Source of the DNA: Rubripirellula reticaptiva
GTDB lineage: Bacteria > Planctomycetota > Planctomycetia > Pirellulales > Pirellulaceae
Assembly (NCBI RefSeq): GCF_007860175.1
Contig: NZ_SJPX01000002.1
Span: 1,240,001-1,304,000 of the forward strand
Direction of reading: 5' to 3'
Length of the DNA: 64,000 nucleotides
Every line of letters begins with the position of its first letter. Within the stretch, counting starts at the first letter, position 1. The notes beneath the pieces were generated by a model that saw nothing but the letters and a program-made list of their open reading frames with translations, did no database searches and was not told where the DNA came from. Below, piece after piece: positions 3,395-56,052 of the stretch. Both the position numbers and the translations under genes were made by a program.

Positions 3395-4843
3395 ATGGAC
3401 ACATTCAAACACCGATGGCATCAGTTGCCGATCAGCCGGCAACTGCTTGTCCTCGTCAATGCGATTCTCTTTGGGTTTGTCGTTTTGTTTCTTGTCGTTG
3501 ACTACCGCCTGCGGATGGATCGACATTTGAACGAGAAGCAGATCGCGTTGACCGAAGAAGCAAAAACGATGTACGAATCACTGTTGGTCGCCGAAGCCCA
3601 CGGAGATGTCGCGATTCAAAATTTGGTTGACAACGTTTGTGCTCGAATGAACACCGACGATTCGCCCGGTCACCATATTGCTGCGGATTGGCGAGGGCTG
3701 CCTTACCAAGCGATCTCGCATGGGCATGCTTCCGACGAAATGCTCTCTGCCATGCGTTCGGCAGCTGATTCAATAGGCACCGAATCGAGAGCCTCCGGCG
3801 CGCACGTTGTCGGCGCTTTCACCGGACCGGCGGGTACTGTCTACATTTCCGAGAAACGTTCAGCCGTTGTGGGCGCAACACGCCGCTCATTGCTGATCCA
3901 GATGTTTGCCGTCTTGTTGCTGGGAGCGATTGCAGCCTTCGTGGTCAGCGCGGTGCTGCGGCAATTGATTGCCAAACCGATCCAAGGCTTCGTTTCGGCG
4001 TTACAAAGTGTTGCGTCTGGGGACTTGAGCGTGATGGCACGCACGCGAAGCTGTCGAGAACTGAGTTACCTTGCCGATCAGATCAATGCAATGACTGAGG
4101 CGTTGGATCACGCTCAGCGTGACCACCGTGTTCACATGGAAAAGGCACGCCAGATTCAACAGAACCTACGCCCGACAGTGAATGGACTGGTTGGAATCGA
4201 CGTCGCCGAGTTGTTTGAGCCGGCCGACGATGTTGGCGGTGACTACTACGACGTCATTCCATTGTCCGATGGACGTTATCTACTTTGCGTCGCTGATGTT
4301 TCGGGACATGGCGTTCCAGCCGCGATGGCGGCGACGTTGTTGAAGGCGTTCGTGTCGGAAGCAGCAAAGAAGTCGTCCAGCCCCGCTGAAATATTGACAG
4401 ATGTCAATCAACGTTACTGCGAGTATGTAATGATGGGACATTTTGCGACCATGGCGTTACTGGTCGTTGACCCTAAAAACAGGCAACTGACCTACGCCAA
4501 TGCTGGCCACGAGTTTCCGTTCTTGCAGATAGGACGCGACACGCCTGTGCGATTGAACGTGGGCGATCTGATCTTGGGCGTCGAGGACGATACGCACTAT
4601 GACGAAGAAACAATTCCACTAGGCGATTCGGCTCGCTTAGTCATCGTTAGCGACGGAGTGACTGAAGCGTTTGATCCAAGTGATGAGCAATACGGCACCA
4701 AACGAATTGAACATTTGTTGCATTCCGTCCAGAGCTGCAATGCTCGTGAACTTGTTGAATCGTTTGAGTCATCCATCGAAGCGTTTCGCAAGGGCCGAAA
4801 GGCTTTCGATGACACAACGCTATTGGTGGCACAATTAACTTGA
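3395..4843 (+). CDS. Membrane HAMP-domain PP2C/SpoIIE serine phosphatase
   Basis: 482 residues. An N-terminal membrane helix (~18-40), an extracytoplasmic sensor section (~45-160), a second helix (~165-190), a HAMP linker (~190-245) and a SpoIIE/RsbU phosphatase domain to the end. The metal-site motifs DDVGGDYYD and ADVSGHG are intact, so it should dephosphorylate a Ser/Thr phosphoprotein, classically an anti-anti-sigma factor. No STAS or anti-sigma kinase partner is adjacent. The gene follows a strong terminator and therefore has its own promoter. What it senses is not visible. Confidence 0.88.
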   Translation: MDTFKHRWHQLPISRQLLVLVNAILFGFVVLFLVVDYRLRMDRHLNEKQIALTEEAKTMYESLLVAEAHGDVAIQNLVDNVCARMNTDDSPGHHIAADWRGLPYQAISHGHASDEMLSAMRSAADSIGTESRASGAHVVGAFTGPAGTVYISEKRSAVVGATRRSLLIQMFAVLLLGAIAAFVVSAVLRQLIAKPIQGFVSALQSVASGDLSVMARTRSCRELSYLADQINAMTEALDHAQRDHRVHMEKARQIQQNLRPTVNGLVGIDVAELFEPADDVGGDYYDVIPLSDGRYLLCVADVSGHGVPAAMAATLLKAFVSEAAKKSSSPAEILTDVNQRYCEYVMMGHFATMALLVVDPKNRQLTYANAGHEFPFLQIGRDTPVRLNVGDLILGVEDDTHYDEETIPLGDSARLVIVSDGVTEAFDPSDEQYGTKRIEHLLHSVQSCNARELVESFESSIEAFRKGRKAFDDTTLLVAQLT

Positions 4844-5506
4844 TTGGGCCGCAGTATCGTCGCCGACATACCGTCCGATTGTGAATCCAATTTCGTTTGG
4901 CAATGTCGGGTACTTTGCTCGGCATAGTGGGCCAAGCCGAAAAAGTGATGCTTGGGCGACGTTTTGGAAACCCATGCGGTCGACTGCTTTCAATGCTCGT
5001 TGGTTGGAGCCTTCGGTGGTTAGCACCAGCGTTTGGATTCCATCGGTTTGCAACTGATCGGCCATTTGGCTCATGATTGCTGCGTAAAGGCGACGGCCTC
5101 GGTAGGCGGGCAAGACCAGCACTTGGAATACGAACGCGGCATCGTCGGAGAGCTGGATTGGCAGACCAGTTTCGGGCTTGCCGTCGTGGTTCATCTGGCC
5201 GGGAATGTCTCCGAAGGCGACCCAAGCGAATCCGGCGAGCGAATTGGCTTGGAACGCTGTGAAGCACCGGGCATGCCCAGCATCTAGCATCTCAAAGTCA
5301 CGTTCTGGGATTTGATATTCCAGTTCGTGCGCGTGCGAGCGAAGGCGATCGGAGGAACACGAGTCGATCGTGTATCCATCGGGGATGGGTGTTCGCGGCA
5401 TCTGGTCAATGGGCGATTGATAAAATTGACAGATATTCGCAATCGCTATTCGCCGCATCGCTCGGTACGGCAACCACCGTAGCGAGCGTGAAGATGTAAT
5501 TTTCAC
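4835..5506 (-). CDS. GNAT-family N-acetyltransferase
   Basis: Up to 223 residues. The acetyl-CoA-binding motif A is clear (VLVLPAYRGRRLYAAIM) and motif B follows (NQRALKAVDRMGF). The substrate cannot be told from sequence. The start is uncertain: GTG at 5506, ATG at 5458 and ATG at 5401 are in frame, and the fold seems to begin near the last one (MPRTPIPDGYTI). The 3' end overlaps the convergent phosphatase gene by 9 bases. Confidence 0.78.
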   Translation of the reverse strand: MKITSSRSLRWLPYRAMRRIAIANICQFYQSPIDQMPRTPIPDGYTIDSCSSDRLRSHAHELEYQIPERDFEMLDAGHARCFTAFQANSLAGFAWVAFGDIPGQMNHDGKPETGLPIQLSDDAAFVFQVLVLPAYRGRRLYAAIMSQMADQLQTDGIQTLVLTTEGSNQRALKAVDRMGFQNVAQASLFRLGPLCRAKYPTLPNEIGFTIGRYVGDDTAAQSS

Positions 5507-5524
5507 AGTGGGAATCCGCCAGCG

Positions 5525-5800
5525 TTAGTGGCAGCAGCTTCCGCCGCCCGACGAAGGGCGGGGCGATGCTGAAGTGGAAGCAGCGGAGAACGAGGTTGCT
5601 ACTGGCGGTTGATAGTCAGTATCGAGGTCGACCGCCGTGTCGTATTGAATGTTGGCAGCGGCCTGTTCGGCATATTGCTGAGCAGTCATAGACGGTTCGT
5701 CCTTTCGATTGCCAACCCAGGGCAGCGATTGGCATCCGGCAGACAGCGAGAGGGTGCAGATGAACGCAGCGGTAGCGCAGGATTTCCATAGCGATTTCAT
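5525..5800 (-). CDS. Small lipoprotein with Gly-Ser-Cys-Cys-His tail
   Basis: 91 residues with a signal peptide and lipobox (LSAGC), so lipid-anchored. The body is polar and the C-terminus ends SGGGSCCH, a possible metal-binding tail. Start ATG at 5800 has a good AAGGAAG ribosome-binding site. It follows the metal-cassette gene (stop at 5945) on the same strand, after a 144-base gap. Function unknown; the copper neighbourhood and the CCH tail suggest envelope metal handling. Confidence 0.62.
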   Translation of the reverse strand: MKSLWKSCATAAFICTLSLSAGCQSLPWVGNRKDEPSMTAQQYAEQAAANIQYDTAVDLDTDYQPPVATSFSAASTSASPRPSSGGGSCCH

Positions 5801-5944
5801 GACGACTTCCTTGTCGTGAGTTGAAACAAAAAAGGCAGGGACGGCGTGGTGACGTCATCACTTGCGTGAATCAGACGCGACACCGCCCCCGCGTGAGTCA
5901 GAGGGGAAGCGAGGAGCCAATTTGCAAACTCGCTCCCGAGTTGA

Positions 5945-7333
5945 TTAACGAATTGTTGGAGCTTCGACTCCTTGTGATTTCAGGACAGCTAACCACTTGT
6001 GCGGCTCGGCTGCGATCTTCTTCGCGCATCCAGGGCAACAGATGTAGATTGCTTTCCCGGCCGCGTTGACCTTGTACGGTCCACCCATCGCATCGAGCGG
6101 TTCGTCCATCACGGGGCATTTCTTCTGGGCTGCGATAAATGGAACATCGGCAGAAACTACTTTGAAAATGCCGTCGCGTACTTGCTCGGTTCCGGCGGGG
6201 ACGGACGCTTGATCGCCGTTCCCATAAACCATGGCGAGGTACTTCGCTGGTTCAGCTTGAATCTTTTTGATGCAACCTTTGCAGCACAGATAAATCGGCT
6301 TGTCACCAACCATCACCTTGATCGGTGTGCCCATGCCACCGAGAGGCTCATCCATCACTGGGCAAACCTTTTGAGCCGCAATGGCCGCTGCGTCGGCTTG
6401 CGTTGATGTTGAGACAGTAATCTTTGCCGCAGTCGTGACAGCGGGCTGGCCACTGTTTTGCGGACCGTTCCCATAAACCATGGCGAGGTACTTCGCTGGT
6501 TCAGCTTGAATCTTTTTGATGCAACCTTTGCAGCACAGATAAATCGGCTTGTCACCAACCATCACCTTGATCGGTGTGCCCATGCCACCGAGAGGCTCAT
6601 CCATCACGGGACAGACCTTTTGGGCGGCAATCGCAGCAGCGTCGGCTTGTGTCGCTGTGGTGACCGTTATTTGCGGGCGACCGGCAGCATATTTAGCCGG
6701 GTCTGACTTGACCGCGTTCACACAGCCGGCACAACAAACGTAGAGTTTCTGTCCGTTCACATCGACTGCCACGGGATCGCCCATACTGCCGAGCGGCTTT
6801 CCGCTGACGGGACATATCTTTTGACGGCCAATTGCGGCGGCGGCCAGTTGTTGCTCGCTGGCGGGAACCGTTGCGACCTCGTTGAAACTGACGACATTTC
6901 CGCCCGAAGCCTTCATGCCGACCAACTGAATATCGACGTCGATTTGCCGACCAGCAAGCTGCGAAAGATTCACTGGAGCCGTTAGCGCTCCTTTGCCGTC
7001 GGGAAGCAAGTCGTAGCGATAGCGTTTCGCGTTGCCTTCAACGCGCACTGAGACAGCACCGCGTCCCTGGTCGACCGAGACTGGCTGGCCCGTGCGATCG
7101 TAGACGAACATTTGCAGCCCGCCTTGGGAAACAATTGTTTCGATTTGCAGGTTGCCGGTTTGTTTCAGACTGCCGCCATGCGGCCCCACTTGAGTTGCTT
7201 CTCGAGCCTGGGTCATGCCGGGCATCGCGTGGTTGTGTCCAGCGTGGTCGTGCTGCGATTGAATCGTTTGCCCAAACACAGACGATGTGAACATCGCGAG
7301 CGAGAAAGCAGTGACAATGAGTGTTCGTTTCAT
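5945..7333 (-). CDS. Secreted protein with four CPV/M-CCxGC metal-binding cassettes
   Basis: 462 residues with a signal peptide and a His/Met-rich segment after it (HDHAGHNHAMPGM). An N-terminal domain of ~140 residues precedes four cassettes of ~45 residues. Each has a CPV(S/M) start, PLG-MG, a YxCC-GC core and a PxKY end, a layout like YHS/TRASH metal-binding modules. Cassettes 2 and 3 are almost identical (see the repeat entry). It lies downstream of cusA 1 on the same strand (113-base gap), so a periplasmic copper/silver chaperone or sink for that efflux system is likely. GGAG precedes the ATG at 7333. Confidence 0.75.
   Translation of the reverse strand: MKRTLIVTAFSLAMFTSSVFGQTIQSQHDHAGHNHAMPGMTQAREATQVGPHGGSLKQTGNLQIETIVSQGGLQMFVYDRTGQPVSVDQGRGAVSVRVEGNAKRYRYDLLPDGKGALTAPVNLSQLAGRQIDVDIQLVGMKASGGNVVSFNEVATVPASEQQLAAAAIGRQKICPVSGKPLGSMGDPVAVDVNGQKLYVCCAGCVNAVKSDPAKYAAGRPQITVTTATQADAAAIAAQKVCPVMDEPLGGMGTPIKVMVGDKPIYLCCKGCIKKIQAEPAKYLAMVYGNGPQNSGQPAVTTAAKITVSTSTQADAAAIAAQKVCPVMDEPLGGMGTPIKVMVGDKPIYLCCKGCIKKIQAEPAKYLAMVYGNGDQASVPAGTEQVRDGIFKVVSADVPFIAAQKKCPVMDEPLDAMGGPYKVNAAGKAIYICCPGCAKKIAAEPHKWLAVLKSQGVEAPTIR
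6216..6607. repeat. Tandem 143-bp exact duplication inside the cassette gene
   Basis: Bases 6216-6358 recur exactly at 6465-6607, an offset of 249 bases (83 codons, in frame). This is the DNA behind two adjacent identical metal-binding cassettes. Exact identity at silent positions points to a recent in-frame duplication or gene conversion. Confidence 0.9.
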
Positions 7334-7446
7334 GGGAGAACTCCGTTGTGAAAGTCAGGACGCCATCCGTTGGGTCCGTCGATCTTGGTGAGGTTGATTA
7401 ATTGGATGCCCGAGTCGTGAGTTCCTTCACGGGCAAATGAAGAAAT

Positions 7447-10400
7447 TTATGCCGCTTTCATGAGTTCCTCCTCCGGCATCGCTTCGGTTCCTTCCCAAAG
7501 CTCGTCTTGAAATCCAAATCGCATTTTCAATTCCAGATAGCCGCAATAGAGTGTCGGCACGATGAATGAAGTGAATGGTTCGGCTAGCATTCCTCCGAAC
7601 ACTGGAATCGCCATCGCTCGGGCAACGTCAGCCCCACGGCCCGTCGCGATCAACACCGGAATTAACGCGGCAAGCGTCGTCACGGTCGTCATCATGCAAG
7701 GTCGAATACGTTTCAGGCCGGCTTCGTAAACCACATTGCGAATGTCTTCGACCGATTCGATTTTGCGTTTCTTGAGAAGTTGATGGATGTAGGTCGCCAT
7801 CACGACGCCATCGTCGACCGCCAGACCGAACAGGGCGATGAAGCCAACCCACACCGCCGTGTTGAGTTCCACGCCCATCGTTGCGACGGCGATCATGCCG
7901 CCGGCAAATGCGACCGGGATACCGGAGAACACGGCCAACGAAATCGAGAAGTTGCGGAACTCCATGTAGAGCAACATCAGATTGATGCAGATGACCAGCG
8001 GAATGATCCACATTAATCGCCGGTTTGCCTCGATCTGGTTTCGGAAACTTCCAACGGCTTCAAGGGAGTAGCCAGCTGGCAATGACAGGCGATTGGGATC
8101 CGATGGTGGAAGAGATTGCGCTTTGCGGAGTTGTTCTTCGATCGCAGCGACCGATTCCAAGTCGCCTTTGCTACCATTGGCCATGAAAGAAACGTGAGCG
8201 ACCAGTCGCCCGTTTTCACTGTTAATCGCACCTGGCCCCCAGGTCGTTTCCAGCTTTGCGAGTTCTTGCAGCGGCACAACAGCACCTGAGTGCGTGACGA
8301 CTGGCAAACGTTTCAGCCCGTCGATCTGTTCGCGAAGGTCACGGTTGTATCGAAGCCGCACGGGATAACGCTCTCGGCCTTCGACCGTCTTGATCAGATT
8401 CATTCCGCCGAGTGCCGTCTCGATGACCTGGTTCACCATCGACGAACTCATTCCGTAGCGTGACGCTGCCTCACGATCGACAGTGAACTCGACGTAGGGC
8501 TTGCCGAGCACAATGTCGGGATTGACCGTGCCGGCATTGATCAGTGGTGACTTCTTTAACTCGGCGGCGACGTCCATTGCGGCGTCGGCGAGCGTGTCCA
8601 GCTTGTCGCCGTAAACACGGATGGCCATCGGTGCCTTGATACCGGACTGCAACATCACGACACGACCTTCGATCGGCTGCAGCGCCGAGGCCGGCGTGAC
8701 GCCCGGTAACGTCGCGACGCGGTTGATCTCATCCCACACATCGCGTGCAGTGACGCCCTCTCGCCACTGGCTTTCAGGTTTCAGCATCACATACGTTTCG
8801 ACCATCGCTGCGGGCGCGGGATCGAGCGCCGATTCCACGCGGCCTATCTTGCCGAGCACATCTTTGACTTCGGGAATCTGGCCGATCAGCACGTCCTGGG
8901 TTTGTAAGACCTGCATCGCTTGCGAGAAGCTCGCCGCCGGGTACAGCGTCGGCATGTAGAACCAACTTCCCTCGTCCAAGGCGATCCAGTCGTCACTTTG
9001 CAAACCCGTGAAGACGTGCTTGGCGTCGACGTAGCCGGGGAAATCATTCAGCTCGGCACCAAATAGGTTCGCGAACTTCTCGATCGGACGCATCACTGTC
9101 GGCATTCCAATGTAGGCTCCTACACCGATGAACAGCAGCACTAGCGGAAAAGAGAGTGCGAATGCTTTGTGATTGAGCGCATGTCGCAGTCGCGCCGCGT
9201 AAATCCAGCGAACGAAGCGGCTCGACGGAATTTCTTCGATGGGTCGAATTCGTTCTCGCATCAACTGCCAACCGCCAATGAAGCCGATCATGGCTGCGAC
9301 TGCGGTCACAATCCAAGTATCCAGGCCAAAGCGTTCTGCCAGTCGCGATCCCCAAAGGAAATGTGATACGGCACCTAGCAATCCGGAGAGCGACAACGCA
9401 GAAACCAACGCGGTTGATTTGCGACGTACATTGCTTCGCAGCATCAATCGACATAAAGCCGGCACGATCGTGACGGCCGCGATCATTGCTGCAGCAATCG
9501 CAAATGTCTTGGTATAAGCCAGCGGCGAAAATAGCTTGTAATCGCGACCGGTCAAAAAGAAGACCGGCAGAAAGCTGACGATGGTTGTCGCCACGGCAGT
9601 TACGACGGCTGGTGCGACTTCTACCGTTGCTTCGTAGACAACTTCCGCACGAGGTTGCTTGATTCTCGCCTCTGCGCTTCCTGATTCCCAATCAGAAAGG
9701 TGTTGGTAAATGTTCTCCGAAACGATGATTGCCATGTCGACCATCGTGCCGATCGCGATCGCGATGCCGGCGAGCGACATGATGTTCGCACCGACGCCGA
9801 CTACCCGCATCGCGATGAACGACATCAGTACGGCGGCAGGCAAACAAATTGCGACGACAAAACTGCTGCGAATGTGCAGTAAGAACAACAGGATGATGAT
9901 CGCCGTGATGATGATTTCGTCACGCAACGCATGCGTCAGCGTCGCCATCGTCTCGTCAATCAGTCCGCTGCGATCATAGACGCCATGGATGGTTACGCCT
10001 TGCAGCGATGGCGTAATCGCGGCGATCTTTTCTTTCACTCGGTCGATCACGACGCGTGGGTTCTCGCCGTATCGCATTACGACTACGCCGCCAACGGCTT
10101 CGGCTCCGTTGTAATCCAACGCACCGCGGCGAAAGTCAGGACCAATCTGCACAGCGGCAATGTCACGGACGCGAACGGGAACGCCGTCACGCTGCATGAT
10201 GACGGTGTCCTCGATGTCCTCGACCGCCTTGTCCTTGTCACCACCCGAGCCGAGGAAGCCCTTACTGCGGACGATAAACTCCATGCCAGTCGTTTCGACG
10301 GTTTTCGCTCCGACGTCAACGTTCGATCCCTTGATCGCCATCGCCAATTTGTCCAGCGACACGTTATGGAATCGCAGCTTGTCGGGATCCACTTCGATCT

Positions 10401-43036: not shown

Positions 43037-45832
43037 TCAGAATTTTTCGAGGATTGAGCCTGGATCGGGATCGGGCTTTTCCCCTGCTGGTGGGTCATCG
43101 GCGTCACCAGTGTCTGCGTCCGGTTCGTCGTCATCCGCCCCGGCGATTTCGTCCTCGAGTCGCCGTTGCCGAGTCCACTCATCTTCGCAGATGACAGTTT
43201 CTTCGGTGAGTGCCGGCCAGGGTTGCTTGCTGCGTCGTTCGTGCTCGGCGAATGACATTGCAAATTCGGAGTCGATGGGCATCGTCAGTCCGCCGTATTG
43301 AGCGTAGTCACGGTCTGCTTTGAGGCGGATGATGCTCCGTTTTCGCTTGGCACTTATGTTATTGCAGTCCACGGCCGTCAAACGCGGATGCTCAACTTCG
43401 GCAAATGATACGGTCGGTTGCTCGCCCGGTTGTTGGCTTGTACTTCTGGACAAAACGACGCTGTTACCGGAGGTGATTGAAAGATCCTGAATCTCTGACT
43501 TTGTTGTGACCGAAAAATACTGCTGCACCTGCACGTTGGCTTCGACGGTGGTCGTTAAATCTAAGCCGGATTGTTTCAGATCCTCAAGAGACTGGTGGGC
43601 AACAATAAGGCTGATATTCAAGCTGCGGGCTTGTTGGAAAACTTCCTTTAGGCTAGGCGATAGAATGCGTTGGAATTCGTCAATTACTACGTAGGTTTGA
43701 ACTCGTGACTGTTTTCGTAAGTGCAACGCAGATTTGAAGATTGAATGGAGGGCGAGTTGGGCGAGGTTTGCACTGGTGATGCTTCCGTCACCACTCCCCA
43801 GATCGAAGTGGCAAACCTGCGGTGATCTGAAAAACTGCGTGCAGTCGATGGCGTTTTCGAGAGCTTCATTGGAATGCCCCATCCCAGAAATCGCATTGAC
43901 CGACTCCAGCTCCGCCATTCGTCTAAGCACCATCTTTACGTGGCTTGAGTCGTCTTTTCCTCGCTTAGGCTTGTGGAGCGAGACCTCTTCACTCGCTTTG
44001 CAAAGCTCGCGGAACGATCGAACCTCGTCTTTCCTCTCCGCGTATGTGATCACTTCTGCAAGGTGATCAGAGTTGGCGTCGGAGAAGAACGATGGACCGT
44101 AAGAAACGCCATATTGCAATCCCAAAGCCTGAGTCAAAAAGTCTGCTTTGGTTTGCGGCGAACGCCCTTTTAAATACTGCTGGTCGACAGGATTGAAGAC
44201 ATAAGTTGACTCGCCTCGCTGCAGTGTGTGCCAGCGGAATCGCATGGCTCGTTTTTCGCTCTCGATACGGAGCGTCTCGAATAGAGCCGTGTCACCACCC
44301 TTGAGGTCCATCACAACAACGGATGCATCTCCATGCTCCATCAGTTGAATAATCAGCGGAATCAATCCGCAGCTCGTCTTGTGTGAACCACTTTTCCCCA
44401 AGATATGGACATGCTCCTTAAACGCCGCTCTAGGAATCAGAACAGGTGTGTTATCTTTGGAGTTGACCCCCATAAATATTGATTCGTTTGTGCGACGGTC
44501 ATCGCAATTGGCGACACGTTTGGTGATGTCTTGCCAAATCTCTGGTGTCAGGAAATGGCCGGCACGGACTCCTTTTGGAAACCGGGCACCTAATCTAGAA
44601 ACCACGATCATTGGTGTCGTAAGTGTGAGAGCCAGACCGGCGAAAAAGCAAACGATGGGTGAAACGATCCACGTGAGATAGCGAACGGTTTCTGCGTCGA
44701 ATGTGGAAGTGTTTGTGTTCTTCTGGAATGATCTTGGACCAGCAATCTCTATTTCCCAACGATTTCGTTCATCTTCCGTAAGACGGTCGAGAAAAGCTTT
44801 CTGATACGGCTGTAGAACCGTTGATTGCGAGCTACTGGAAGCCTGAATTGCTTTGGCAGGAGCTTGGTAGTCTTGCGGAACGCTGATCTGTGCAGCAGCG
44901 GCAAGGATGCCAAGTGACGCGACTGTGATGACTTGAGTCCAGCGTTGCTGGCAGTTGCCGGTACTTGCATGGTAGTTTCCCACACCCGGTTGGTTCCGCC
45001 AGTTGTATACGCAAAATCGACGAACGGCTCGCTTCATTCCGTAGTACATTCGTCGCGGTGTGAGGTACGGACGAAGACGTATCTTTCCAAGTACAAACTC
45101 AGTTGCGAGTAGCAAGCTAACAGACATGATTAGCCATGCGGTGACCAAAAAGAGTAGAGTTGTCGCAATAGAAAGAGGCGAGTCGGAGCCGCGCAAAAAG
45201 ATCGAGAACGAAACGATGTAGAGAATCGCCGGCGTGAATAGCACGAGGGGATACCACTCAATGTATTGCGAAGAAAACTGCCGAGCAAATCGCTTCTTCC
45301 AACTCTCGCGAAACATCTTACATTCGGACAAGAGCGTCGGTGGAATAGTCTGAAGCTCCATCGTTTGTGTCGCCAAACGGTCTGCGGCATGCACCGATAT
45401 GACCATTGCAACAAAGAGCGTGACGAAGGATGGGCTGAGAAGAGAAGCCGAATAGCAAATCGCCAGACCGACCAAGGCGGGCAACATCGCAGATGTCACT
45501 CGCCAGTGTGAGCACCTTGAGAGCATGATTGTTCGCAGGTAGATCAGTGTGACCAAGCCTGCAATCCACGCCAGATATTCTCCAAGACCCGCGATCGCTA
45601 GCCAACTCGCACCAAGAGCAAACGCGGCCAATATGGTTGCCCAGGTCTTTCTCCTTTCACGCAGCCAAGGGGTAGTTTGCTTGGGACGATTTCCAAATAT
45701 CGGAAGTTCCAAATCCAATTTGCTGTAGTCTGGAAGTTCCGAATACTGCGTTGGATTGTCGCGTGAAGTGTAAGCCGAGTCTGGATATGCGGGAGTTTGG
45801 AAAAAGCCTTCGATGAATTGTTGGATCTTCAC
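43037..45832 (-). CDS. VirD4/TraD-type conjugative coupling ATPase
   Basis: About 931 residues from the GTG at 45832, which has AAAGGA upstream and lies 16 bases after the previous stop; a GTG at 45889 would overlap that gene. Several membrane helices fill the N-terminal ~400 residues. The ATPase domain has Walker A GKSGSHKT (~480), MDLKGGD, Walker B TYVVIDEFQR (~700) and a Gln-rich motif (IVAHQSLEDLKQSGLDL). The C-terminus is acidic. It resembles the T4SS coupling proteins that bring DNA to the transfer channel. No mating-channel genes are seen nearby. Confidence 0.85.
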   Translation of the reverse strand: MKIQQFIEGFFQTPAYPDSAYTSRDNPTQYSELPDYSKLDLELPIFGNRPKQTTPWLRERRKTWATILAAFALGASWLAIAGLGEYLAWIAGLVTLIYLRTIMLSRCSHWRVTSAMLPALVGLAICYSASLLSPSFVTLFVAMVISVHAADRLATQTMELQTIPPTLLSECKMFRESWKKRFARQFSSQYIEWYPLVLFTPAILYIVSFSIFLRGSDSPLSIATTLLFLVTAWLIMSVSLLLATEFVLGKIRLRPYLTPRRMYYGMKRAVRRFCVYNWRNQPGVGNYHASTGNCQQRWTQVITVASLGILAAAAQISVPQDYQAPAKAIQASSSSQSTVLQPYQKAFLDRLTEDERNRWEIEIAGPRSFQKNTNTSTFDAETVRYLTWIVSPIVCFFAGLALTLTTPMIVVSRLGARFPKGVRAGHFLTPEIWQDITKRVANCDDRRTNESIFMGVNSKDNTPVLIPRAAFKEHVHILGKSGSHKTSCGLIPLIIQLMEHGDASVVVMDLKGGDTALFETLRIESEKRAMRFRWHTLQRGESTYVFNPVDQQYLKGRSPQTKADFLTQALGLQYGVSYGPSFFSDANSDHLAEVITYAERKDEVRSFRELCKASEEVSLHKPKRGKDDSSHVKMVLRRMAELESVNAISGMGHSNEALENAIDCTQFFRSPQVCHFDLGSGDGSITSANLAQLALHSIFKSALHLRKQSRVQTYVVIDEFQRILSPSLKEVFQQARSLNISLIVAHQSLEDLKQSGLDLTTTVEANVQVQQYFSVTTKSEIQDLSITSGNSVVLSRSTSQQPGEQPTVSFAEVEHPRLTAVDCNNISAKRKRSIIRLKADRDYAQYGGLTMPIDSEFAMSFAEHERRSKQPWPALTEETVICEDEWTRQRRLEDEIAGADDDEPDADTGDADDPPAGEKPDPDPGSILEKF

Positions 45833-45848
45833 TCTTTGTTCCTTTGCC

Positions 45849-46565
45849 TCAGATTGCGAACGTTTCAAGCCAACGCGAAGGCTCGACACGAACGGAGACA
45901 GGGAACTGACGTCGCTTGATTGATGCTGCTAGAGTGTCAGCCTTAGCTTGGCTCGGTGTCAGCATGACAATGAAGAAGAGACGGTTTTCGATTAGCTGCT
46001 GAAACGCGGGCACTTCCAATCGTTTGTCTATTTCTGCCTTGCATTTTCGAGCAGCGTGATCGACGGGGCCACCGAGGCATACGACGATCAATCCAAGTCG
46101 CTTTGTGCCCAATTCAGGATCAACTTCAAGAAAGTAGTTCTTGGCATCGACTTTCTTGGCCAGTAGTTTCGGCTGAGTTTTGTCGATCTTCCCGCGCGTT
46201 AGCTTCTCTCTTATTTGAGGCTCAGCGCTGCAGTATTCCAATATCGCCAGTCGTGTGGGCAAAGCTTGGCTACCGAACCCACCGGTTCGATTTCTTGAAT
46301 AGCCAAAGTAATCGCACGCGGCAGGTCCATAGCTGTAGTAGACCGATTCATGATCAATCTTATGACGTTCCAACAATCCGTTGCGGATAAGCCTGGTCGT
46401 TACTTTGGTGACAGCATTGAGCTGGGAATCGTCGAAGAACAACCGATGCAAAACATCACGCGTGGTCAATCCGTAGACTCGCACGTGATCAAGAATCTCC
46501 AAATCTCGATCCATCGTTTTACCGCGAACGGCACGATTATGTTGGGTGGGTTTTCGACGCGCCAT
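45849..46565 (-). CDS. Winged-helix replication-relaxation-like protein
   Basis: 238 residues from the ATG at 46565, coupled to the upstream gene through a TAATG overlap. The N-terminus is a winged helix (RDLEILDHVRVYGLTTRDVL...VTTRLIRNGLLERHKID). The remainder is alpha/beta and may be a degenerate nuclease-like domain. This layout fits the replication-relaxation family (PF13814 type) of integrative elements. Recognition is moderate. Confidence 0.6.
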   Translation of the reverse strand: MARRKPTQHNRAVRGKTMDRDLEILDHVRVYGLTTRDVLHRLFFDDSQLNAVTKVTTRLIRNGLLERHKIDHESVYYSYGPAACDYFGYSRNRTGGFGSQALPTRLAILEYCSAEPQIREKLTRGKIDKTQPKLLAKKVDAKNYFLEVDPELGTKRLGLIVVCLGGPVDHAARKCKAEIDKRLEVPAFQQLIENRLFFIVMLTPSQAKADTLAASIKRRQFPVSVRVEPSRWLETFAI

Positions 46566-47206
46566 TACCAGATCTCGTATGGCAGGTGACGTTTCTGGCA
46601 ATCCCGATGGAATGCTTCAACTCGTTGCTTGTCATAGCTACCGCCGAACTCAAGAACCAAGCGCGGACGTTGATCGGGTGCCTTTGCTAGAACTGCGTCG
46701 GGTAGCTTCTGGCGATAGCGAAACGGTGCGAGATCATCCTCTCCAATCCATGTCGCGGCCTTGTCGGCGTCGTTGCGGCGGAGGTTGAGAAACATCTGGG
46801 ATACGCCCAAGTCATGGGTGGCATGAAAGGAAAGTTTGAGGCGTTTGCCGCCTCGGCCACCAAACATCTTGGACGATTTTGATGTCGCGGTATAAACCGG
46901 AGTTTTGACGACACCTGCCGTCCATCGACTCTGTAGCTTCCACGCAACAGCACCAAAATCAGGCGCAGGCGTCTTTGGCTTCCAACTTGCTACGGGGTGA
47001 TCCATCGGTGGTAGTTCCGACGCAAACACGTGCTGAATCGAAACGAGTTCGACCTCTGCGAGCTTGTTGATGCGACGAATCGCTGCGTCGCTTGTCGCGA
47101 CTGTATCAGGCCACCACGTATCGCGAATTTGGATACGATTCAAGACTCGAACCTGATGACACAGAATCGAGAGAATCTCCTTGTCGCGTGGGGTTAATCT
47201 TGTCAC
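46565..47206 (-). CDS. Second winged-helix replication-relaxation-like protein
   Basis: 213 residues, GTG start at 47206. N-terminal winged helix (LTPRDKEILSILCHQVRVLNR...AAIRRINKLAEVELVS), then an alpha/beta part with HATHDLGVSQMFLNLRR and RPRLVLEFGGSYDKQRV. It is analogous to its downstream neighbour and overlaps it by the TAATG junction. Together they probably control replication or transfer of the island; neither has the HUH or MOB relaxase motifs. Confidence 0.6.
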   Translation of the reverse strand: MTRLTPRDKEILSILCHQVRVLNRIQIRDTWWPDTVATSDAAIRRINKLAEVELVSIQHVFASELPPMDHPVASWKPKTPAPDFGAVAWKLQSRWTAGVVKTPVYTATSKSSKMFGGRGGKRLKLSFHATHDLGVSQMFLNLRRNDADKAATWIGEDDLAPFRYRQKLPDAVLAKAPDQRPRLVLEFGGSYDKQRVEAFHRDCQKRHLPYEIW

Positions 47207-47428
47207 GATGAACTACCAAACTCCCATATTGTGATTCGTGGAGCTGAAAATTCAACAAAAGAAATTGATCGTGTTTCCAAGGTGTTTCCAGATACTCAGA
47301 TCTGACACTTCAGCACGAAACGAAGTCTTTTACGTCGTAATTTACGCCTATTTGGAACTGAGAGGCGGCACATGACGCGGCACATGGCACGGTGAGGTGG
47401 GGTGCCACCACGACGTTGCACTGAAGTA

Positions 47429-47815
47429 GCCGCTGCGAAGCAGCGGCGTGAGGTCGGGCGGCCAAGCCCGACCGAATGGCGAGTCCGTCCAGGACTCGCA
47501 AGACCGATTGCAACCGGCCCCAGGCGGTTCGATCGGTGGCCGAGCGGCCAAGCGAGGCGGAGCGACCCTCGTCGCTCATGGCGTCCGCCCTAGCGGACCC
47601 GTGCAAGACCGTTCAGGTCGCGTGCCCTAGCACGCATGGCTGCGGAGGGAGGGATCTCCCAAGTGCGAAGCACTGGGGAATCCCGAGAGCAGCGGCAAGA
47701 CAAAGCCCGCGGCCCCAGCCGCGCGGACCAATCACGGCCAGGCGTTCCGATCTCCTGATCGCGCACGCGATCGGGAATCGTACGCCAGGACAGAGGGGAC
47801 GTCGCAACGCGACGT
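47429..47815. repeat. Array of more than ten perfect small hairpins
   Basis: Within 387 bases there are perfect stems with tiny loops: 47429-47447 (8 bp, GAA loop), 47452-47473 (8 bp), 47479-47499 (8 bp), 47503-47537 (two-part stem), 47537-47550, 47560-47577 (7 bp), 47583-47598 (6 bp, CCTA loop), 47607-47619, 47620-47635 (6 bp, CCTA loop), 47662-47674 (GAA loop), 47757-47772 (7 bp) and 47799-47815 (7 bp). The stems differ in sequence, so this is not a CRISPR. It fills the gap 47207-47952, which has no credible gene. Confidence 0.8.
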
Positions 47816-47952
47816 GCGCTCTTGTCGAAAAATTGCACGGTTCCGACTGCACTCTATTCGTTGCTTAGGCTCGCTGCTTGCGCTGCAGAACTGGATTGTT
47901 CGTTTGTTAGTGGTACAAGGCCGGAAGCGACGATGTCGCCTCCGGCTGTCCG

Positions 47953-48492
47953 TCATTCAGTCTCAGCAAGGACACCTTCTTGGAGGGACGTTGTCTGCTC
48001 GTTTAGCAGACGCGAGACACTTTCCCAAAGGTCGCGAATTTGACGTGGTGAGGTTGCGAGCCAAACGGTATCAAGCATTGCGTCTTGCTCATCCAGCAAC
48101 GCCAAAATCAGCTTTCCAAGCTCATCGCTTTCCATTAGCCGACGCTTCTCCAACTTTTGCTGTGACTCCATGCGTTTGTCGATGATACCCTTCGCGACCC
48201 ACTCGCCCCTGTCGGCGATGCTGCTGACGGATCGCCCACTCAATCGGGAGGCATTGCGTTTTAGATGCTCCACCCTTTCTTCCTTCAGCCGCTCGATTGT
48301 TGCGTCGATTTCTTCGGCTCGCTTCACTGTTTCGTCAAGCCCAAGCCGCTGTTGCGCCAACTCTTCCGCTCTTGTTTCGATCGTTTCCAAGTAGCTCGGA
48401 TCGCGTTCGGCAACGATCCGCGCGATCGTTGACTCGATACGTTTTCCAATTCTCTCTTTCCAATGCTCTTTCTCTCTGACTGTCATGCTCAT
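47953..48492 (-). CDS. Coiled-coil hypothetical protein
   Basis: 179 residues, ATG at 48492 with GGAG at good spacing. Strongly charged and helical throughout (heptads in ETIETRAEELAQQRLGLDE and ATIERLKEERVEHLKR). No family recognised. Third gene of a minus-strand set that starts at 49138. Confidence 0.65.
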   Translation of the reverse strand: MSMTVREKEHWKERIGKRIESTIARIVAERDPSYLETIETRAEELAQQRLGLDETVKRAEEIDATIERLKEERVEHLKRNASRLSGRSVSSIADRGEWVAKGIIDKRMESQQKLEKRRLMESDELGKLILALLDEQDAMLDTVWLATSPRQIRDLWESVSRLLNEQTTSLQEGVLAETE

Positions 48493-49138: not shown

Positions 49139-49182
49139 GGCGTGTCTCCATTTGTTGGTTCATTCTTAGCACCGTCTCCGAA

Positions 49183-49392
49183 GCGTTCCTCGGTCGGTGC
49201 AGGAGACACCTGACGTGCTGTCGAGCCGGGGGCAAGGTGGAGAACGGAGCGCAGCGGAGTGGACCTTGCGGCCGAGCGAGCAGCATGGCAGAGGGCGGCG
49301 TGCGTTTTCCGCGACGCGGAAACGCATGACGGTCATCTTCCGCGAAGCGGAAATGACGTACCCGCGTGGCTCCTGCACCGACCGAGGAACGC
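49183..49392. repeat. 210-nt multi-hairpin element closed by a perfect 23-bp stem
   Basis: The outer arms 49183-49205 and 49370-49392 are exact reverse complements over 23 bases. Inside are hairpins at 49301-49326 (GCGTTTTCCGC arm) and 49332-49357 (TTCCGC-GAA-GCGGAA plus a GTCAT/ATGAC base), and a weaker stem with ends near 49217 and 49284. The layout is a closed multi-branch structure. It lies in the 486-base divergent gap between the 49138 trio and the MT-A70 gene at 49625; nothing else was seen there. Confidence 0.8.
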
Positions 49393-49624
49393 CCCCAATC
49401 TCGACAGGTTTTGCGTCACATGCTTGACGAATCAAATCGGAAAGGGTGTCAGGTCTTGTACGGCTGTATTCGCCGTGAAAATCAACGTCGACGACAACCG
49501 AACTTGCAGTGGACGTGCCATCACAACGTCCACATTCTTCGCGATTGGCTGTTTTGAGTTTTCAATGGTCAGGGTAATCGCCAACCGTTGGCGAATCAGT
49601 TTGTTCCTAACAAAAGGCAATCGC

Positions 49625-54468: not shown

Positions 54469-55707
54469 TTAGCCGAACACGCTCTTGATAACTTCTTGCT
54501 CCTTTGTCGGGAATAGATGCCGATAGCGTTTCCGCATGGCTTCGGTAGTATGACCAACCCAAGCGTCGATGATTCGTTGATCGACGCCCTGCGACGCACA
54601 GTTGCTGCAAAACGAGTGTCGAAGACAGTGCCACCCGCGAATGACTTCCCACTTTGAGCCGGCCAGCGTCCGTTGGAAGTGGTCATTCGCTTCGTTGCGA
54701 GTAATTGGCAACAGGCTCTCGCGACTCTTTTTGCTGCGGGCGATATCAGGAATGCAAAACGTGTGCAGGCCACCTGGATGAACCGTTCTCCACTGCTTGA
54801 TCGCCTTGGTCAGGCGATCCGACATGGGGACTCGCCTCGTTGACCGTTGCCCACGGACTCGCTTTTTCTCGCGAACGACCATGTGCGTCGCGTTGAAGTC
54901 AACGAATTGAGAACGCATCAACTCGCTCCGCCGTACACCCGTGTGCGCTGCCGCAACGAACATTGGATAGATAAACGGGTGGTTTGCGGTTTGCTCAACG
55001 TAGTCAAGCAACTCTTCAATCTGCTCGCGCGTCAAAAAGAGGCAGTCCCATAAATCTAGGGAAGCAGCCTCGTCCAAATTGCCACGCTCGATTTGGTCAG
55101 CAATCTCTTGCATCGTTTGAAAGTGCGGTTTTTCATCCGTCTTCGGAAAGCGAACTCCCTTCAGTGGGTAAGGAGTCGCGACGATGCTCTCCGCCAACGC
55201 CCAATTCCAGACGCTACGGAGTGTGACGAGTTCCTTTCTGATTGTCGCCGGGCTCAGCTTTCGACCGCGAATCCCTGGCGCCTTGGCTCGCTTCTGAACG
55301 TAGGTCTGTAACGTCTCACGAGTGAGTGAATCTATGGGGAATCGAGCACCAATGTGTCGCTCCAGGTGGGTCTGGTGCGTCTTCATGCCATCAACTGTAG
55401 TGTCCTCTAATGCATCGTCCGGTATGCCATCGAAGTATCGCTGGAACAGTCCCGAAAGCTGAACCCGTTCGGTGGCCGACCTTTTGGATTCCAGCTTGCC
55501 ATCGGAGAGAAGAAAAATTGGAGCATCCGCGTTGTCAGGCAACTCCAAACGCCCACTTTCAACCAGCCGAATGTTCTCCTCCAGTCGGTGAAGCCTTGTC
55601 TGTGCTTCCGTTTCGTTTTTGGTTTTCAGGGAGCGTTTGTACTTGCGGCCGGCAAATCGAAAGCTGATGTGGAAATTGCCGGAAGGATCATTTTGAAGCC
55701 ATGCCAT
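54469..55707 (-). CDS. Tyrosine recombinase of the tRNA-Leu island
   Basis: 412 residues from the ATG at 55707 (GAGAGA upstream). An arm-binding N-terminus (WLQNDPSGNFHISFRFAGRK), a core-binding domain (~95-190) and a catalytic domain with HTGVRRSELMRSQF (Arg), HCLRHSFCS (His-x-x-Arg), WVGHTTEAMRKRY (His and Tyr) all present. The gene lies 177 bases from the 3' end of tRNA-Leu, the usual place for an integrase that inserts into a tRNA gene. It fixes the right end of the island. Confidence 0.92.
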   Translation of the reverse strand: MAWLQNDPSGNFHISFRFAGRKYKRSLKTKNETEAQTRLHRLEENIRLVESGRLELPDNADAPIFLLSDGKLESKRSATERVQLSGLFQRYFDGIPDDALEDTTVDGMKTHQTHLERHIGARFPIDSLTRETLQTYVQKRAKAPGIRGRKLSPATIRKELVTLRSVWNWALAESIVATPYPLKGVRFPKTDEKPHFQTMQEIADQIERGNLDEAASLDLWDCLFLTREQIEELLDYVEQTANHPFIYPMFVAAAHTGVRRSELMRSQFVDFNATHMVVREKKRVRGQRSTRRVPMSDRLTKAIKQWRTVHPGGLHTFCIPDIARSKKSRESLLPITRNEANDHFQRTLAGSKWEVIRGWHCLRHSFCSNCASQGVDQRIIDAWVGHTTEAMRKRYRHLFPTKEQEVIKSVFG

Positions 55708-55838
55708 TTTCTCGGTCTCTCTCAATTGAAGTGAGAGTGAGCCTAGCTCTGGGCGACGTGCTCAGGCCAGCGACGCAAGCCCAACACAAACGCAGGGGTG
55801 CCACTGATCTGCCACTGATGGTTCTGAGAGCGCATGAA

Positions 55839-55872
55839 AAAAGGACTCAGAGCCAAAGCCCTAAGTCCTTTT
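55839..55872. terminator. Bidirectional terminator hairpin
   Basis: AAAAGGACT (55839-55847) pairs with AGTCCTTTT (55864-55872) around a 16-base loop, with A/T runs on both sides. It lies between the tRNA 3' end and the integrase and would stop tRNA read-through. Confidence 0.7.
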
Positions 55873-55883
55873 CTCACAAAGAG

Positions 55884-55966
55884 TACCGAAGGAGGGACTC
55901 GAACCCTCACTCCCTTGCGGGAACTGGATTTTGAATCCAGCGCGTCTGCCATTCCGCCACTCCGGC
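55884..55966 (-). tRNA. tRNA-Leu (anticodon CAA)
   Basis: An 83-nt class II tRNA. The 7-bp acceptor stem begins GCCGGAG at 55966. The anticodon stem CTGGA/TCCAG holds loop TTCAAAA. A long variable arm (TTCCCGCAAGGGA) and the T-loop GGTTCGAGTCC are present, and the discriminator is A. CCA is not encoded. Likely attachment site of the island. Confidence 0.95.
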
Positions 55967-56052
55967 TTCTCGTCGTTGCCGTTTCCGACTACTCGAGAGG
56001 GACAAGTATCTAAACCTGAGGCAGTTTTTGCAAGCCGGGCTTGCAGAAGTCT

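Follow-up and report, generated by a model that had tools for sequence, protein, structure and literature searches.

Origin-of-transfer (oriT) regions that belong to MOBC-type relaxases, such as those of CloDF13, pAD1 (TraX) and the streptococcal integrative and mobilizable elements (IMEs) with Rel_PF13814, adjoin genes for a Replic_Relax/PD-(D/E)XK-like relaxase and a VirD4-type coupling protein, and they carry a repeat motif near this operon. Predicted neighbours of the same kinds, and a repeat motif, also go with an array of small hairpins that we analysed in a 64,000-nt stretch of the Rubripirellula reticaptiva genome (contig NZ_SJPX01000002.1, positions 1,240,001 to 1,304,000; hereafter the window). 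The fold of this array is conserved by covariation in otherwise different sequences, and the array is probably part of the machinery by which such elements pass between cells. In the excerpts consulted, MOBC relaxases are related to PD-(D/E)XK proteins (PMC12857230), and PF13814 stands for MobC in CONJscan, both streptococcal IMEs that carry it having VirD4 (PMC5357655). A covarying array of about 10 hairpins is not among the features that these excerpts describe for MOBC oriT regions.

Other described systems resemble the array in part. ICEBs1 has a functional single-strand origin (sso) whose structure is considered important, either alongside its sequence or in place of it, and its sso1 likewise forms several stem-loops on one strand near the relaxase gene (PMC4595007, excerpt). 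Compared by structure, sso1 has three stem-loops, whereas the array has many modules with fixed loop classes. The single-strand promoters (Frpo, ssi) of F-like plasmids are folded single-stranded DNA in the leading region, with the genes beyond them templated on that strand, as we propose for the array (PMC11541004, excerpt). In Frpo the -35 and -10 boxes are paired, whereas no sigma-70-like sites were seen in the window gap that holds the array or in a related locus (L093), although planctomycete promoters may differ. Salmonella genomic island 1 (SGI1) needs a self-encoded small RNA, sgm-sRNA, a non-protein transfer factor whose functional part lies between the mobilization gene mpsA and oriT (PMC9299015, excerpt). 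This likeness is one of description, and the mobilization proteins of SGI1 are tyrosine-recombinase-like, unlike the neighbours of the array. The large ornate bacterial RNAs GOLLD, ROOL, OLE and HEARO are long, contain multiple helices and reside partly in mobile elements. None of them came near in permissive scans of the array and of the related loci L034 and L093, which gave weak, chance-like matches all below the cut-off; the best of these, a group II intron fragment in L034 (E 0.022), was rejected. At gathering scores, Rfam 15 matched only tRNA in the whole window, distant from the array.

No title or abstract opening among the literature matches listed describes such an array, which is weak evidence of absence because subscription journals and preprints lie mostly outside the coverage. 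The transfer origins of planctomycetes are, to our knowledge, poorly characterized. A covarying fold of 49 base pairs that stands beside relaxase-like and coupling genes and is kept across two phyla would mark such origins, which sequence searches would miss because the stems differ almost completely.

The array was first noted in a sequence-only reading of the window as at least a dozen stems of 4 to 8 bp, beyond chance. In 47429-47815 we counted 12 nonoverlapping perfect stems, each 5 bp or longer and closed by a loop of 2 to 6 bases, comprising 79 stem bp, whereas 500 dinucleotide shuffles averaged 2.62 such stems with a maximum of 7, and none reached 79 stem bp. When stems of at least 4 bp are admitted, the 13 observed (shuffle mean 7.4, maximum 14) are within chance as a bare count, but their 83 stem bp were again equalled by none of the 500 shuffles. 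Folded as RNA, the plus strand reaches -220.8 kcal/mol, whereas 100 shuffles average -171.7 (z -8.9); the minus strand has z -4.7, and the whole gap 47207-47952, for which the shuffle comparison had originally been suggested, gives z -9.8 (40 shuffles). Among 400-base segments of the 64 kb taken in steps of 100, the richest in hairpins is 47401-47800. By direct reading, the loops GAA and CCTA and the sequence GCGAAGC each occur twice, as had been reported.

Relatives of the array share its loops more than its stems. A DNA search of 60 related genomes recovered the window's own copy, one copy of 98% identity (G001) and a 28-base match in G054, around which lies a further array with the same loops and different stems. 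Homologues of the winged-helix protein beside the window array occur in 28 of 296 genomes of the order, own included, and their surroundings hold arrays with CCHA, GTNCA and GGCCAA loops clustered on one strand in similar order. A covariance model (R1), built from a 7-copy MAFFT alignment, matched 10 of 396 genomes of the order, nine with E < 1e-17 and one weakly (G144, E 0.0084); we attribute the latter match and a second place in G001 (E 0.0032) to chance or to isolated modules. Of 392 genomes drawn from the phylum, three matched, own included. Both the DNA search and R1 place the array only once in its own genome, which rules out REP (repetitive extragenic palindromic) or other dispersed palindromes; as regards copy number, the array is indeed unlike REP, as first described.

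A protein search supplied 48 named loci, and R1 run over 88 sources gave 31 matches with E < 1e-6 in 27 distinct loci, so that the covariance search proposed at the outset did recover ordered hairpins. The count sets aside three loci of genomes already included, and L034 holds two matches. Alignment A6 was made from 27 of the 88 sources, omitting the three same-genome loci, the weak matches and the sources without matches; A7 comprises 44 of the 48 loci plus the window, and A8 comprises 34 loci plus the window. Weak matches in L081, L082 and L052 and one in L097, which is cut by a contig end (E 0.0002), were omitted, and all four count among the 58 loci without an array. In these 58 loci, loop hairpins of the array type are rare (41 in 847,121 bases, both strands). 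The named carriers are planctomycetes including Tautonia (Isosphaerales), one unclassified metagenome-assembled genome (L123) and two Competibacteraceae (Gammaproteobacteria); the other carriers belong to the order or class of the window. The two Competibacteraceae arrays, almost identical to one another, have the same loop types, and R1 finds them at roughly estimated E-values of 1e-7 and 5e-7. Exact-pattern scans for the conserved core gave no hits in viral contigs or genome contigs, nor did a pattern for the 3' domain in viral contigs. Neither the L093 array nor winged-helix protein 1 (wH1) had a match among plasmids.

Compensatory changes, whose absence the sequence-only reading had named as evidence against it, are abundant. 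In an alignment of 28 copies, 95.8% of cells are paired and 45 of 49 pairs have changes on both sides; the covariation score is 0.656, against 0.144 in shuffles and at most 0.068 when the structure is slid along the alignment. Note that this alignment was fitted to R1 and hence leans towards the model, whereas the MAFFT alignments were not so fitted. The 7-copy MAFFT alignment shows double changes in 28 of 49 pairs and scores 0.470 (at most 0.110 when slid).

The modules follow one order: a GTNCA hairpin, a bulged-C module with a CCHA loop, a stem with GA/GA and a GGCCHA hexaloop, another GTNCA hairpin, a second bulged-C CCHA module and two further GTNCA hairpins (Table 1). Several are thus compound, the first bulged-C module consisting of outer stem, bulged C, inner stem and CCHA loop, and not the simple stems of the first description. 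Individual modules differ from locus to locus, and stems change while the three loop types and the bulged C are kept. The one G-G mismatch of module B in the window is paired in the 98% relative. 3' of the ordered modules lies an AT(C)TCC..GGGAAT hairpin. The window, L034 and L042 have almost the same sequence there, and L092, L093 and further loci have variants of it. Conserved sequence begins farther 5' than the limits first drawn, at about 47277. L034 carries two tandem array copies of about 264 nt (8750-9266) with a few stem differences between them. The array of L093 (Contendobacter) is about 800 nt long as judged by eye, and its 3' domain, TTCCGCGAAGCGGAA followed by a G-rich stretch and ATCTCCC..GGGGAAT, appears to the eye to be repeated about three times (8590-9090).

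Table 1. Features of the array, its 5' flank and the neighbouring genes, in window coordinates
Feature	Position	Strand	Basis or remarks
Hairpin array	47429..47815	+	Folding on both strands, shuffles; + is the better-folding strand
Imperfect inverted repeat CCAAGGTGT..TACTCAGATCTGACACTTC, candidate relaxase-binding / oriT motif	47277..47311	+	Gibbs sampling of 5' flanks; putative function
Pairing-capable stretch GGCAC..GGTGCC, 5' array edge	47364..47409	+	Alignment A9, 7 loci: GGCA invariant, GGTGC in most
Module A, GTCCA pentaloop hairpin	47479..47499	+	Loop scan, MAFFT and 28-copy alignments
Module B, outer stem, bulged C (47511), inner stem, CCCA loop	47503..47537	+	28-copy alignment
Module C, stem, GA/GA, GC, GGCCAA hexaloop	47539..47558	+	Alignment of relatives
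Module D, hairpin, loop CCTC (GTNCA in most aligned relatives)	47560..47577	+	Alignment
Module E, outer stem, bulged C (47582), inner stem, CCTA loop	47578..47602	+	Alignment
Module F, GTTCA pentaloop hairpin	47607..47619	+	Loop scan, 28-copy alignment
Module G, CCTA hairpin (GTNCA in most aligned relatives)	47620..47635	+	Alignment
Hairpin GGGATCTCCCAAGTGCGAAGCACTGGGGAATCCC, bulged C after AT	47651..47684	+	Near-identical in L034 (two copies) and L042; variant in L092, L093
Second AT(C)TCC..GGGAAT hairpin	47741..47786	+	Similar hairpins in L034, L122
wH1, Replic_Relax-like, predicted MOBC-type relaxase	46568..47206	-
Winged-helix protein 2 (wH2), wH1 operon	45849..46601	-	Homologues beside wH1 or coupling-protein gene; no Pfam match
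Type IV coupling protein (T4CP), VirD4/TraG type	43037..45889	-	TraG-D_C 1.7e-9
Tyrosine integrase of the element	54469..55725	-	Phage_integrase 7e-19; beside tRNA-Leu 55883-55966

We also found a motif in the 5' flanks of the arrays. Gibbs sampling of 23 flanks, from which the near-duplicates L123, L105 and L092 had been removed, placed 16 sites that end in nACAC (the end being read from the output). These sites start 136-188 nt before the core, 15 of them within 163-188 nt; for L080 we used a site at -177, since the sampler's -222 was a short-flank artefact. The log-likelihood of the motif is 212, compared with at most 172.5 in six shuffled sets, and a regular expression, written after the flanks had been read, hits 10 of 26 flanks where 0.6 are expected. 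Nine of the 16 sites fall among the 12 flanks whose nearest winged-helix gene is more than 3.5 kb away, so the motif accompanies the array and cannot be explained simply as a winged-helix promoter. We treat it as a candidate for the repeat that would lie near nic.

The genes beside the array are those expected of an oriT region. A T4CP gene lies on the 5' side of the array and on the opposite strand in all 24 loci in which one was found on the contig, several of these loci being close relatives. A homologue of one of the two winged-helix proteins has the same placement in 25 of 27 loci, none being found in the other two, which confirms the gene context first described. In 11 loci the nearest winged-helix start lies 204-317 bp from the core, in 14 others it lies at 3.5-7.1 kb, and it is on the opposite strand in every case. 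wH1 itself scores 18.3 bits against Replic_Relax (cut-off 25.3), and 27 of 45 members of its family match that model at E <=0.01, the best at 5e-8; the T4CP matches the VirD4-like CD1115 family at 3.5e-11, below the model cut-off. Because a structure look-up with the whole wH1 model returned a list filled by winged-helix proteins and a profile search against the PDB found no relative, we built a second model of the C-terminal half. The predicted fold of this half appears to resemble restriction endonucleases, as in MOBC relaxases, in line with the PD-(D/E)XK kinship that the excerpt of PMC12857230 gives for these enzymes. Foldseek returned no PDB match at E <=0.001 for either the whole model or the C-terminal half.

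The strand and chemistry of the fold were then considered. The array strand is lower in energy under RNA parameters in 24 of 26 copies, and the ratio of G-U to A-C is 12 to 1 on the alignment and 10 to 1 when counted by lineage; from both we conclude that the array strand is probably the one under constraint. The asymmetry is weaker among the single internal mismatches of hairpins found by free scan (G-T 28, A-C 18, others more). On the same two grounds we dropped the idea that the complement strand acts, where the loops begin CTG/CTA/CTT in a primase-like manner. G-U accounts for 1.2% of consensus pairs in the arrays (15 of 760, or 2.0%, in a MAFFT-only alignment) versus 13.9% in the RNase P of 20 relatives; in minimum-energy folds the shares are 4.0% for arrays, 9.4% for RNase P and 7.8% for shuffled array sequence. 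One-sided differences number 206 of 3476 in the arrays (MAFFT-only) against 272 of 1245 in RNase P, and 81 of 267 for eight RNase P sequences of different genera. The array thus lacks the G-U tolerance typical of RNA, as judged against this one control, and we read its fold as kept as DNA, or as perfected when one arm is copied from the other in single-strand replication. That G-U pairs are nearly absent points to an easy sequence-based way of telling folds selected as DNA from those selected as RNA.

Our favoured explanation, which we hold at about even chances, is that an integrated, mobilizable element with a MOBC-type relaxase and a VirD4-type coupling protein has the array as its oriT-proximal part, and that the array folds on the transferred strand. 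Single-strand origin, oriT and structured RNA had all been offered originally, and the evidence leans to the first two because of the strict Watson-Crick pairing, which suits a fold that was selected as DNA, or whose arms were copied from one another as DNA, and because of the motif at nearly fixed distance. The relaxase would act at or near the inverted repeat and nick the array strand, so that the array might be the first DNA to enter the recipient. There it may fold as single-stranded DNA, with the repeated loops and bulged-C hairpins bound by protein, and its likeliest role would be an sso/ssi-like initiation signal or a relaxosome-loading signal; like an sso, it has several stem-loops on one strand, and their structure is better conserved than their sequence. 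Relaxase genes typically lie in the lagging region (PMC11541004, excerpt). In 20 of 24 loci, the first open reading frame (ORF) of 120 aa or more past the array points towards it, as expected of leading-region genes templated on the transferred strand, and this together with the relaxase operon on the 5' side suggests that the array strand is the transferred strand and the array the leading end. Of all ORFs within 3.5 kb past the array, 42 face it and 31 do not. Two points qualify this explanation: the motif could be the promoter of another gene there, and RNase P is the sole control, from one group, with fewer G-C pairs in its stems and a consensus comparison of 22 pairs. More tentatively still, and with a chance well short of even, the arrays could represent a new class of transfer signal common to MOBC-type elements of Planctomycetota and Gammaproteobacteria, in which many hairpins of single-stranded DNA, a modular 'aptamer' array whose loops follow fixed codes (CCHA plus bulged C, GTNCA, GGCCHA), would fold on the transferred strand in the recipient and be read hairpin by hairpin by a dedicated protein for second-strand synthesis or loading of the transferred strand.

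Ranking second to an oriT-linked single-strand fold, and in our view rather unlikely, is a structured noncoding RNA made from the array strand, divergent from the relaxase operon, that would act in trans in transfer (as scaffold or cofactor of the relaxase or coupling protein) or regulate the operon. The bulges and GA motifs are RNA-like, the strand preference and G-U excess over A-C described above are as an RNA would have them, and the SGI1 small RNA (PMC9299015, excerpt) is a precedent. By eye, the L034 array is followed on its own strand by a hairpin that, with its T run, looks like a terminator, but the symmetry of this hairpin would also suit the opposing gene. However, both the G-U share and one-sided change are far under those of RNase P of the same group, and transcription would collide because the first ORF past the array so often faces it. 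No sigma-70-like promoter was found on either strand in window 47150-48000 or L093 8050-9450, and in the window gap and L093 the array strand showed nothing like a terminator, both being weak tests. Strict Watson-Crick stems would also suit duplex DNA in the donor, with hairpins extruded by supercoiling as a platform for wH1 and wH2 at oriT or as a promoter regulator. The winged-helix fold of the neighbour protein and its close start in 11 loci are consistent with such a cruciform, but the distant genes in 14 loci, the one-strand clustering of loop types in seven array loci and the free variation of the stems, unlike protein-binding palindromes, make it improbable. Perfect stems with few one-sided changes, and the tandem duplication in L034, could also arise if functionless palindromes were perfected by template switching in single-strand replication. 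We regard this selfish or mutational origin as more improbable again, given that module order, loop identity, the bulged C and the position relative to the operon are kept across phyla and that the array is single-copy in its own genome.

Several observations concern the surroundings. No exact direct repeats of at least 14 bases link 55700-56000, at the integrase and tRNA-Leu, to the remaining window. Beyond the array, 47953-48492 encodes a 179-aa protein that matches no Pfam, NCBIfam or PADLOC family and has relatives in L094 and L060. A second strong fold (z -8.6) at 49180-49400 precedes an MT-A70 methyltransferase gene; in it a long outer stem encloses TTCCGC(GAA/GAC)GCGGAA hairpins, a type that recurs in the 3' part of several arrays. 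In Planctomycetes bacterium K23_9 (L120), PD-T4-6-like defence kinase genes and a weakly Cas4-like gene lie between array and relaxase operon (4134-9453), with an ArdC-like antirestriction gene on the other side.
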